Shown in pieces: positions 12,812 to 15,290 of a DNA stretch of 44,264 nucleotides. Each line of letters starts with the position of its first letter. The first letter of the stretch is position 1. A program made the translations under genes and the position numbers. The notes beneath the pieces were generated by a model, which was not told the DNA's origin, ran no database searches, and worked only from the letters and a program-made list of their open reading frames with translations. Source of the DNA: Crocinitomicaceae bacterium (GTDB taxonomy: Bacteria; Bacteroidota; Bacteroidia; Flavobacteriales_D; Crocinitomicaceae); assembly GCA_021740745.1 (NCBI GenBank), contig JAIOZF010000018.1, forward strand, positions 1-44,264, read 5' to 3'.

Positions 12812-14614
12812 TTATTTTCCTTTCTCCATTTTTTCTTTCAATGCAGATAAAGCATCTAAGTCACCTAACGTAGATTTCTCTGTGTTTTGGTTGATTGCTT
12901 TAACAGCTTGTGAAGTTGATGAACCACCACCACTTGCAGCTTTCTTACCACCTTTAGCAGCAGTTGATGCAGTTGGCTTGTCTTCACCTTCTTCGAATAA
13001 ACGTGTATGAGAAACAACGATTTTCTTAGAATCTTTGTTGAATTCAATCACTTTAAAGTCAAGTGTTTCCTCCACTTTCGCGTTAGAACCGTCTTCTTTT
13101 CTTAAGTGTTTAGCAGGACAAATTCCTTCTACACCGTAAGGTAAAGAAACGATACCAGACTTATCTTTCATATCGATGATAGTTCCTTGGTGTACAGAAC
13201 CTTCTCCGAAGATAGTTTCAAATACATCCCATGGATTCTCTTCTAATTGCTTGTGACCTAAAGAGATTCTTCTGTTTTCTCTGTCGATTTCTAATACAAC
13301 CACTTCCATTTCGTCTCCTACTTTGCAAAATTCTGATGGGTGCTTGATTTTCTTTTGCCAAGAAAGGTCAGAAATATGAATCAATCCGTCAACACCTTCT
13401 TCTAATTCAACGAATACACCGAAGTTAGTGAAGTTACGAACTTTCGCTTTGTGCTTAGAAGCAACTGAATATTTGTTTTCGATATCATTCCATGGATCTG
13501 GCATAGATTGTTTGATACCTAAAGACATTTTACGCTCTTCACGATCCAATGTTAAGATAACAGCCTCAACTGTATCTCCTACATTCATGAAGTCTTGAGC
13601 AGAACGTAAATGTTGTGACCAGCTCATTTCAGAAACGTGAATTAAACCTTCAACTCCTGGAGCGATTTCGATGAATGCACCGTAGTCAGCCATAACAACA
13701 ACTTTTCCAGAAACTTTATCACCAACTTTCAAGTCAGTATTTAAAGCATCCCATGGATGTGGTTGTAATTGCTTAAGACCAAGAGCGATTCTTTTCTTAT
13801 CATCATCAAAGTCAAGGATAACAACGTTTAATTTCTGATCCAATTCAACGATTTCTTCTGGGTGGTTAACACGACCCCAAGATAAATCTGTAATGTGAAT
13901 CAAACCATCAACACCACCTAAGTCGATGAATACACCGTAAGATGTGATGTTTTTAACAGTTCCTTCCAATACTTGACCTTTTTCAAGACCAGAGATAATT
14001 TGTTTCTTTTGTTCTTCCAATTCCGCTTCAATAAGCGCTTTGTGAGATACAACAACGTTTCTAAATTCTTGGTTGATTTTAACAACTTTGAATTCCATGT
14101 TTTTACCAACGTAGATATCGTAATCACGGATAGGCTTAACATCGATTTGAGATCCTGGCAAGAAAGCCTCGATTCCAAAAACATCAACGATTAATCCACC
14201 TTTCGTACGACACTTAACGAATCCAGTGATAACTTCACCAGTACGTAATACGTCATTCACATGAATCCATGCTTTGTGCATACGTGCTGTCTTGTGAGAA
14301 ACGATCAATTGACCTGATTTGTCTTCTTGACACTCAACATAAACATCAACAGTATCACCAGCTTTTAATTCTGGATTGTAACGAAATTCTGAAGCAGCAA
14401 CAACACCTTCTGACTTGTAGCCAATGTTGATGATAACTTCTTTTTTGTTGATTGAAATAACAGTTCCTTCGATTACTTCTTTCTCAGTAATTGAGTTTAA
14501 TGTTACTTCGTACTTGTCTGATAACTCAGAACGTTGGATTAGTGTGTACCCGTCTAATGCGAGTCCATCCCAATCAAAATCTGCAATTCCTTGCGTTTGT
14601 TTAGTGTTTGCCAT
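12812..14614 (-). CDS. rpsA: 30S ribosomal protein S1
   Basis: A 600-residue protein with six S1 (OB-fold) repeats. Recurring signatures are GYKSEGVVAASEF, VDGLIHITDLSW, VEGLIHVSEMSW and VDGLIHISDLSW, each ending in (R)ISLG(H/L)KQL-type strands. S1 binds mRNA and delivers it to the 30S subunit. In Bacteroidota, where most mRNAs lack Shine-Dalgarno sequences, S1 is thought to matter especially for initiation. The last 60 residues are a low-complexity Ala/Gly/Ser/Lys tail, then a short helix. It has its own promoter element at 14711-14718 and a leader of about 90 bases with two hairpins, which suggests autogenous control as known for E. coli rpsA. Confidence 0.97.
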   Translation of the reverse strand: MANTKQTQGIADFDWDGLALDGYTLIQRSELSDKYEVTLNSITEKEVIEGTVISINKKEVIINIGYKSEGVVAASEFRYNPELKAGDTVDVYVECQEDKSGQLIVSHKTARMHKAWIHVNDVLRTGEVITGFVKCRTKGGLIVDVFGIEAFLPGSQIDVKPIRDYDIYVGKNMEFKVVKINQEFRNVVVSHKALIEAELEEQKKQIISGLEKGQVLEGTVKNITSYGVFIDLGGVDGLIHITDLSWGRVNHPEEIVELDQKLNVVILDFDDDKKRIALGLKQLQPHPWDALNTDLKVGDKVSGKVVVMADYGAFIEIAPGVEGLIHVSEMSWSQHLRSAQDFMNVGDTVEAVILTLDREERKMSLGIKQSMPDPWNDIENKYSVASKHKAKVRNFTNFGVFVELEEGVDGLIHISDLSWQKKIKHPSEFCKVGDEMEVVVLEIDRENRRISLGHKQLEENPWDVFETIFGEGSVHQGTIIDMKDKSGIVSLPYGVEGICPAKHLRKEDGSNAKVEETLDFKVIEFNKDSKKIVVSHTRLFEEGEDKPTASTAAKGGKKAASGGGSSTSQAVKAINQNTEKSTLGDLDALSALKEKMEKGK

Positions 14615-14633
14615 GTGGCTTTTTAAACTTGTA

Positions 14634-14695
14634 TTTCGAGCGTCCCAAACACCCGAAAGTGATGATTACTTGCTGTCCTTAGTTGGGATAACAGC
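14634..14695 (-). promoter_or_regulatory. Structured 5' leader of rpsA with two hairpins and complementary loops
   Basis: In the minus-strand RNA the first hairpin pairs GCUGU (template 14691-14695) with ACAGC (14672-14676) around a 14-base loop that contains CCCAA. The second pairs UUUCGGGUGU (14649-14658) with ACGCUCGAAA (14634-14643), ten pairs including G-U pairs, around the loop UUGGG (14644-14648). The two loops are complementary (CCCAA with UUGGG, six pairs if the closing A is included), so a kissing interaction is possible. It lies between the rpsA promoter element and its start codon, the place expected for a ribosomal-protein leader. Confidence 0.6.
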
Positions 14696-14710
14696 TTTAT
14701 TTTAAGGGTG

Positions 14711-14718
14711 CAAAGATA
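14711..14718 (-). promoter_or_regulatory. Bacteroidota -7 promoter element for rpsA
   Basis: On the minus strand this reads TATCTTTG, matching TAnnTTTG, 96 bases before the rpsA ATG. The -33 TTTG is not evident at the usual spacing. Confidence 0.6.
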
Positions 14719-14842
14719 CTTATAAATTCGGAATTTGGAATTGAGAAGTAAAAAAAAATAGTAGAAATGTTGATTTCAATTATTAATTGAGTCAAACAAC
14801 GGTTTTTATCAGGTTAAAAACCTCTAAATCAACAAGGTTAAC

Positions 14843-14872
14843 TAAAAAAAAAGTCCACCTTTTGGGTGGACT
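14843..14872 (-). terminator. Intrinsic terminator after the small exported protein gene
   Basis: AGTCCACC (14852-14859) pairs with GGTGGACT (14865-14872), loop TTTTG. It is followed on the minus strand by a run of T corresponding to 14843-14852. It lies about 20 bases after the stop at 14892. Confidence 0.9.
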
Positions 14873-14891
14873 CTTACTAGAATAGAATTTA

Positions 14892-15290
14892 CTATTCTGA
14901 TTTCATTGGACGTTCAACTTGTTTAATCACTTTTCTTTTTTCTTTCTGAGCTTTTTGCATCTCATCGTACTTTGCTAATTGATCTGCTGTCAACACAGTG
15001 CTATATTGTTTTCTTCTCGAATTGTTGTTCGTTCTGATTGATTCTCTTTTTACTTCTTCCGTCATTGTTGTGTTTGTGCGAATTGCCTCGTTCTTTGTAA
15101 CAATACCTTCATTAATCGATGCAATTTTTTCTTTCTGTTCGGCGGTTAGATTTAATTCTGTTGCCATTCGTTCTGTTTGTTTTGCTGCTCGCTCTTCAGC
15201 TGTCATTTTTGGTTTAGTTTCTTGACCAATTGCTGTGATTGAAGCAAATACGATAAAAATTCCTGCAATTATACTTTTCATATGTTTCAT
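14892..15290 (-). CDS. Exported small helical protein, Spy/CpxP-like in organisation
   Basis: A 132-residue protein with a signal peptide (MKSIIAGIFIVFASITAIGQ; the Met at residue 4 is an alternative start at 15281). The mature part is highly charged and helical, with the repeated theme LNLTAEQKEKIASIN and VLTADQLAKYDEMQ. The LTxxQ pattern resembles LTxxQ-motif Spy/CpxP periplasmic chaperones. Similar small proteins are frequent and mostly uncharacterised in Bacteroidota. A periplasmic chaperone-like role is an inference from this organisation. Its upstream end faces the divergent LRR lipoprotein gene. Confidence 0.72.
   Translation of the reverse strand: MKHMKSIIAGIFIVFASITAIGQETKPKMTAEERAAKQTERMATELNLTAEQKEKIASINEGIVTKNEAIRTNTTMTEEVKRESIRTNNNSRRKQYSTVLTADQLAKYDEMQKAQKEKRKVIKQVERPMKSE

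Follow-up and report, generated by a model that had tools for sequence, protein, structure and literature searches.

In gamma-proteobacteria ribosomal protein S1 (bS1) is an autogenous repressor, free and 30S-bound bS1 competing at a start region that has no canonical Shine-Dalgarno (SD) sequence, and pseudoknots are described as high-affinity targets of the protein (PMC10931766). Those obtained by S1-SELEX carry ACA in their loops (PMC3879156; see also PMC7708055), and 30S-bound S1 melts a pseudoknot much better than isolated S1 (PMC3858243). The rpsA leader reported here resembles the gamma-proteobacterial and E. coli operator in its gene, in a structured start region without canonical SD, in its AU-rich single strands and in the proposed competition for S1; it is set apart by the published description, which names neither a loop-loop helix nor UACAA (PMC10931766). 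Related bacteria are known to carry cis-acting RNAs, found through covariation, in front of ribosomal protein genes: Eckert and Weinberg (2020) reported 20 new ribosomal protein leaders (r-leaders), several of them in Flavobacteria, and the Flavobacteria and Bacteroidia leaders of S4, S15, S16 and L13 belong to genes other than rpsA; their Table 1 lists none for S1, and the main text uses none of the terms rpsA, pseudoknot or kissing (PMC7247131). The candidate leaders of Fremin and Bhatt (2021) are likewise named for other ribosomal proteins. Feedback tuned to the SD-ignoring Bacteroidia ribosome is exemplified by the autoregulation of rpsU (bS21) in F. johnsoniae, which works through an extended SD and bS21-less ribosomes and involves no leader fold; bS1 of the same organism, when added, aided initiation on an mRNA devoid of an SD (PMC9976891). 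The pseudoknotted leaders of E. coli rpsO (S15) and tisB are bound or melted by S1 (PMC3858243, PMC7708055). They precede genes that differ from that of the leader described here. Their topology is also another one, not that of two kissing hairpins. In the purine riboswitch two hairpins are joined by loop-loop pairing; unlike it, the rpsA leader is without a closing helix and three-way junction and has no match in Rfam.

The element lies on a contig of a Crocinitomicaceae bacterium (JAIOZF010000018.1, assembly GCA_021740745.1), and the whole stretch analysed, 44,264 nt, is called the window below. Its features are, from 5' to 3' of the transcript:

14844-14872, minus strand: intrinsic terminator of the gene upstream of rpsA, hairpin AGUCCACC/GGUGGACU plus U-run, read from the sequence
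14711-14718, minus strand: putative Bacteroidota-type -7 promoter element TATCTTTG, by comparison with the TAnnTTTG consensus (PMC7366714)
14690-14695, minus strand: 5' strand of P1, GCUGUU, with pairs that covary in relatives
14683-14688, minus strand: K1, the kissing-helix strand in loop 1, UCCCAA, from sequence and scans; in relatives both sides change in 6/6 K pairs
14672-14677, minus strand: 3' strand of P1, GACAGC, from sequence and covariation
14659-14671, minus strand: A/U-rich linker joining the hairpins; its final base is a C, present in 99% of 114 leaders
14649-14658, minus strand: 5' strand of P2, UUUCGGGUGU, from sequence and covariation
14643-14648, minus strand: K2, the kissing-helix strand in loop 2, UUGGGA, from sequence and scans; A14643 is also in the innermost P2 pair
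14634-14643, minus strand: 3' strand of P2, ACGCUCGAAA, from sequence and covariation
14629-14633, minus strand: UACAA tail immediately 3' of P2, a candidate contact for S1 or the 30S subunit
14617-14619, minus strand: GCC, which may pair with GGC 14612-14610 to form a 3-bp start-codon hairpin (AU of the AUG in the loop; GCC is the 5' strand), suggestive only
12812-14614, minus strand: rpsA, ribosomal protein S1, 600 aa, six S1 domains (ORF; Pfam PF00575, E=3e-80, 6 stretches)

A first-pass annotation of this DNA had pointed to two hairpins before rpsA, with loops CCCAA and UUGGG, the second on a 10-bp stem, and to five to six pairs between the loops, a description that proves exact. In P1 (14695-14672) the outer five pairs are canonical and the sixth is U-G, and P2 (14658-14634) has 10 bp, including G-U pairs, and the loop UUGGG (14648-14644). 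The kissing helix, K, comprises 5 bp (CCCAA/UUGGG), or 6 bp (UCCCAA/UUGGGA) with the inner U-A pair of P2 opened. Both hairpins lie between the -7 box and the rpsA start codon at 14614, in a leader of about 90 nt, and the AUG stands 19 nt 3' of P2. Since the box at 14718-14711 follows the Bacteroidota -7 consensus TAnnTTTG (PMC7366714), the rpsA start site would be near 14705, a position that derives from the consensus rather than from start-site data. The annotation had considered a transcription start downstream of the first hairpin fatal to its proposal; the predicted promoter is upstream of P1. The upstream terminator suggests that rpsA forms its own transcription unit.

Two hairpins alone are unremarkable here, as the nested fold of the window leader has a z-score of -1.72 and 13 of 200 shuffles are equally good. 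When P1, P2 and K are scored jointly, the window is matched by none of 200 dinucleotide shuffles; two hairpins plus a kissing helix in this rpsA leader are confirmed to be far beyond chance. Nested folding as the sole judge was discarded: it does not single out the leader and would have led to dismissing the element. A swap test, in which own loop 2 was set against own and foreign upstream regions, gave a median rank of 0.076, with 51 of 133 leaders in the top 5%, and 10/132 for the window leader itself. Compared with the shuffle test, the swap test is the weaker one; related loops shared by many foreign leaders are the probable cause.

Eighty rpsA loci were fetched from relatives, and the leaders, as read, share a common plan in differing letters. 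Cultured relatives that carry the element include Fluviicola chungangensis (L028) and Brumimicrobium (L049, L056, L058, L063). The strands of K are CCCAG/CUGGG in L006, AAUCUUAU/AUAAGAUU in L049, AACCUUGAA/UUCAAGGUU in L031 and CCUUGU/GCAAGG in L033. As MAFFT alone misplaced P1 in some rows, a covariance model termed R1, which holds P1 and P2 only and excludes K, was seeded on alignment A4 (seed of 14) and the relatives were realigned. At E<=1 R1 gives 64 matches among 81 sources, one per source and all in the rpsA leader by coordinates, the matched loci having been fetched through rpsA. No match was obtained in 17 sources, of which L006, L012, L030, L040, L042, L048, L054, L069, L071, L073 and L079 pass the first-rule kissing scan described below, L078 fails it, L044 is a contig without the rpsA leader, and the others are L080-L083.

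In the resulting alignment A6 (64 rows) 92.0% of 1040 cells are paired and 17 of 18 pairs show changes on both sides; four measures were reached in 0/500 shuffles and one in 1/500, and the covariation score is 0.584 versus 0.146 for the best slid version. Alignment A7, reduced to 40 distinct rows, has 93.5% of 713 cells paired and both-side changes in 16 of 18 pairs, with 0/500 shuffles throughout and a score of 0.612 versus at most 0.165 when slid. All six K pairs change on both sides in A6 and A7 (76.5% and 82.4% of cells paired), and this covariation is not built in, since R1, which made the alignment, has no K. On a FastTree tree (42 S1 proteins/rows) the six K pairs need a minimum of 1, 4, 4, 2, 5 and 6 changes from one Watson-Crick pair to another, at least 22 in total. 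G-U mispairs stand to A-C mispairs as 13:1 in P1 and 16:0 in P2 (A7), a count that leans on the fit of the alignment to these stems, and K has 23 G-U, 18 A-C and 23 other mispairs, partly register shifts. Inverted repeats bound by a protein at the DNA level are unlikely, because the mispairs of P1 and P2 are G-U and not A-C; the K count decides nothing. The annotation had made its case depend on the leaders of close relatives, and in these the stems and the loop complementarity are kept, most weakly in L033 and L078. Covariation lends strong support to the kissing-loop structure, to its conservation and to its siting within the rpsA leader.

Beyond the near set, K was detected by energy and not in one alignment. 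A uniform-rule scan took leaders from TAnnTTTG to ATG, with motif use limited to the promoter box, UACAA not used, and p from 200 shuffles. At p<=0.05 it recovered all 38 usable leaders of the order's other families (24 at 0/200), 49 of 62 in the near set and 39 of 75 usable leaders from the rest of the class (16 at 0/200), the last figure not being a class-wide rate, since the 48 class regions left out may hold fewer elements. Among controls 4 of 30 passed, none at p<=0.01. For the class, 60 of 108 regions were chosen by hand, mostly those with the more similar S1, and for the order 40 of the 69 listed places that had no locus yet, also by hand; the 27 loci L116-L142 came in addition. The uniform rule dropped 52 sequences (20 outside the class, 11 class, 3 order, 18 near); none of the 20 regions from outside the class yielded a TAnnTTTG-to-ATG leader.

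A fixed 95-nt scan was positive at p<=0.05 in 72 of 74 near leaders, missing L033 (11/200) and L078 (24/200), in a set preselected as 75 of 80 loci with a candidate from a hairpin-plus-UACAA parser, which also placed the starts; an N in the sequence led to the removal of L057, L039 was put back manually from its start, and L080-L083 were left out. Its controls gave 7 of 104, about the 5% expected, with 4 at p<=0.01 and one at 0/200. Near leaders overall are positive in 72 of 78 cases. The first-rule scan (60 shuffles) gave 70/73 in the near set, likewise preselected, 31/37 in the order, 29/51 in the class and 2/11 in controls, one of the two positive controls being the rpsA leader itself. Four of its six order misses (L238, L250, L261, L265) had a miscalled start or promoter and passed the uniform rule, and 25 of 37 family codes contained at least one leader at p<=0.05. 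Farther out, K reads GUAAAGC/GCUUUAC in L117, where the purine-rich and pyrimidine-rich sides are swapped relative to the window, UCGGUA/UACCGA in L124, CCGGCA/UGCCGG in L144, AUCGGUAU/AUACCGAU in L183 and UUGAACGGG/CCCGUUCAG in L255. The element is not local to a genome or genus; it occurs throughout the order and in some of the class beyond it.

Its geometry was collected from 114 significant leaders, a set for which UACAA was a selection criterion and which holds 101 distinct K sequence pairs. K is 4-9 bp long, and 5-8 bp in 101 of the 114; the loops have medians of 9 and 10 nt, P1 of 6 bp, P2 of 8 bp and the linker of 13 nt. The distance from P2 to the AUG has a median of 19 nt (10th-90th percentile 16-21), 80% of the leaders falling at 16-21 nt. 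The base preceding P2 is C in 99%, and in 99% P2 starts with U and ends with A. The loop sequences turn over, and UACAA and the closing pairs of P2 are kept. Among 37 leaders from the order's other families 34 contain UACAA, some of the rest being shortened by a miscalled start. The best structure has UACAA immediately after P2 in 71/74 near leaders (fixed 95-nt scan) and in 35/38 of the order and 30/75 of the class (uniform rule), and in 0/104 and 0/30 controls of the two scans, respectively. UACAA alone is unspecific, with 449 RATACAA-N7-17-ATG places in the own genome versus 127 for the reversed pattern.

Further features were noted around this core. Of 120 leaders whose start reads AUGGC, 101 carry GCC no more than 12 nt before it, versus 4 of 47 others; other lineages have UUCAGA-AUG-UCUGAA or CUCAG-AUGU-CUGAG in this place. 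Compared with shuffled upstream segments, the start-codon hairpin reaches p<=0.05 in 60 of 167 rows, which are related and include some miscalled starts. That the start codon sits in a 3-bp mini-hairpin GCC-nnAU-GGC, at 14610-14619 and in relatives, is suggestive only. An extra 5' hairpin between promoter and P1 was seen by eye in L009, L020, L038, L041, L043 and L064 and is absent from the window.

Some families lack the element. The uniform-rule scan found no significant kissing pair in 36 of 75 usable class leaders, and none in the usable leaders of families f23, f33, f39, f42, f48 and f57; f15 has one of four (L121, 4/200, with a 4-bp K and without UACAA), and the f50 leaders, at 45-50 nt, are too short for it. 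By eye, L080-L083 are without the element, L081-L083 being Dysgonomonas, Mariniphaga and Draconibacterium, and L118, L120, L125, L128 and L081-L083 have short leaders without hairpins. Several of these hairpin-less leaders (L118, L120, L125, L128, L082, L083) show, by eye, a stretch like AAUGUCUAAC or AAUGUCUUAUUC soon after the promoter, which is possibly another rpsA element. An AGGAG-like stretch near the rpsA start was noticed by eye in L188, L189 and L191 (f50), L193 and L194 (f48) and L197 and L200 (f23), which have no kissing leader; initiation or control in these class members is possibly of the SD type. The f15 leaders L121, L123, L127 and L139 show, again by eye, only one hairpin where the two kissing hairpins would stand, and UGAC-nnnAU-GUCA at the start codon.

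R1 matched 44 of 299 order genomes, with one match each and all in the window's family; R1 is narrow, so the lack of hits in other families means little, and those families were tested by the kissing scan. Thirty of the 44 genome hits, the window included, were taken as loci and all precede rpsA: tblastn places rpsA directly downstream in 29, and in L104 the contig ends after the first part of this protein. Within the own genome, R1's second-best match after the rpsA leader has E=8.5. The leader displays two of the features by which r-leaders are recognised, a covariation-supported 5' UTR structure and a consistent position before an r-protein gene. The annotation could not tell whether the leader belongs to a published class; in the covariance search the window matches no Rfam 15 family. 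At the gathering threshold there were 0 matches in the window and in 60 relatives' rpsA loci (one of which, L080, is without the element), and below threshold positions 14300-15100 gave nothing convincing. No report of a kissing rpsA leader was found in the open-licence PMC literature; subscription papers and preprints could hold one.

As to function, we think it rather probable that the kissing leader is a cis-acting RNA, most likely an autogenous translational operator for S1. Bacteroidia make no use of SD pairing, and the 30S subunit must therefore reach a structured start region via its own S1. The element consists of two hairpins locked by a loop-loop helix of 5-8 bp, followed by UACAA and by the AUG about 19 nt after P2, a fold that is well supported. 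A 30S subunit carrying S1 would dock on the AU-rich linker and UACAA and melt the kissing fold; excess free S1 would occupy the same site and be unable to bring the AUG into the ribosome, so that initiation would be blocked. S1 as the ligand, repression, and competition with 30S-bound S1 are what we infer as the best account of the position before rpsA and of the affinities of E. coli S1. The fold, the adjoining UACAA and the AU-rich linker match published E. coli S1 targets, and this likeness may be transferable to the kissing leader. The families without the element count against the operator model, since those bacteria too must balance S1. More tentatively, and with some doubt on our part, the leader may be a feedback RNA for S1 that is widespread in bacteria initiating without SD pairing: the kissing fold itself would be recognised and not the loop sequence, the mRNA would read 30S-bound S1, which melts it, versus free S1, which occupies it, and the start codon may sit in a mini-hairpin.

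The same fold could act constitutively, as a standby site or enhancer in which the kissing hairpins and UACAA recruit 30S-bound S1 and raise rpsA translation with no feedback; an S1-binding 5' pseudoknot is the standby element of E. coli tisB (PMC7708055), and ACA motifs enhance translation (PMC3879156). We regard this as unlikely, given that other highly expressed genes would gain equally, whereas R1 finds the rpsA leader only in the own genome and 30 of 30 examined hits (of 44) precede rpsA; R1 is narrow, however, and similar folds with other sequences may exist. R-leaders are usually marked by just such a link to a single r-protein gene.

Somewhat more unlikely is a two-state switch in which K forms instead of P1 and P2, as a long-range nested hairpin. 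The lowest-energy nested fold of L011 is of this kind, K forming a long helix that replaces the melted P1 and P2, so that simultaneous kissing is not proven, and comparative data do not distinguish simultaneous from exclusive pairing. The nested optimum of the window, however, retains P1 and P2, and the median loops of 9 and 10 nt fit a K of mostly 5-8 bp inside the loops, where the scan required it to be.

Kissing loops occur in riboswitches, and the leader might sense a ligand other than S1, for instance a small molecule, uS2 or another r-protein. This is improbable in our estimation, even though in E. coli repression by bS1 also involves uS2 as a partner (PMC10931766): the leader is without a closing helix for the three-way junction of a purine riboswitch, its loop sequences drift without restraint (114 leaders have 101 distinct K pairs), which leaves no conserved loop pocket, and the downstream gene is rpsA and not a metabolic one. 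A closing helix P0 that would create such a junction was sought and rejected, as the own 5' segment pairs with the own tail no better than with foreign tails (median rank 0.58; 6 of 114 leaders at or under 5%). A 5' structure that merely guards the mRNA against decay is highly improbable, for although the structure begins about 10 nt from the predicted 5' end in the window and some relatives, e.g. L038 and L043, have an additional 5' hairpin (by eye), such protection needs neither a kissing helix, nor a conserved UACAA, nor a fixed distance to the AUG. Transcription attenuation was rejected as well, there being no U-run after P2 in the window leader as read.

The way in which Bacteroidota ribosomes select start sites in the absence of SD pairing, and the role of S1 there, are unsettled. 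A conserved and compact SD-less element on the mRNA of S1 would be a defined RNA for S1 binding, melting and feedback in this phylum. The leader has the look of an r-leader under an almost purely topological constraint, the loops turning over and the pairing staying, and such an element is easily missed by sequence-led or nested-structure searches; judging from the leaders compared, evolution has kept the fold while the sequence changed almost completely. If the operator model is true, no S1 operator outside gamma-proteobacteria would have been described before this one, as far as literature searches reach. The kissing-hairpin leader is probably a means of S1 regulation in many Bacteroidota.
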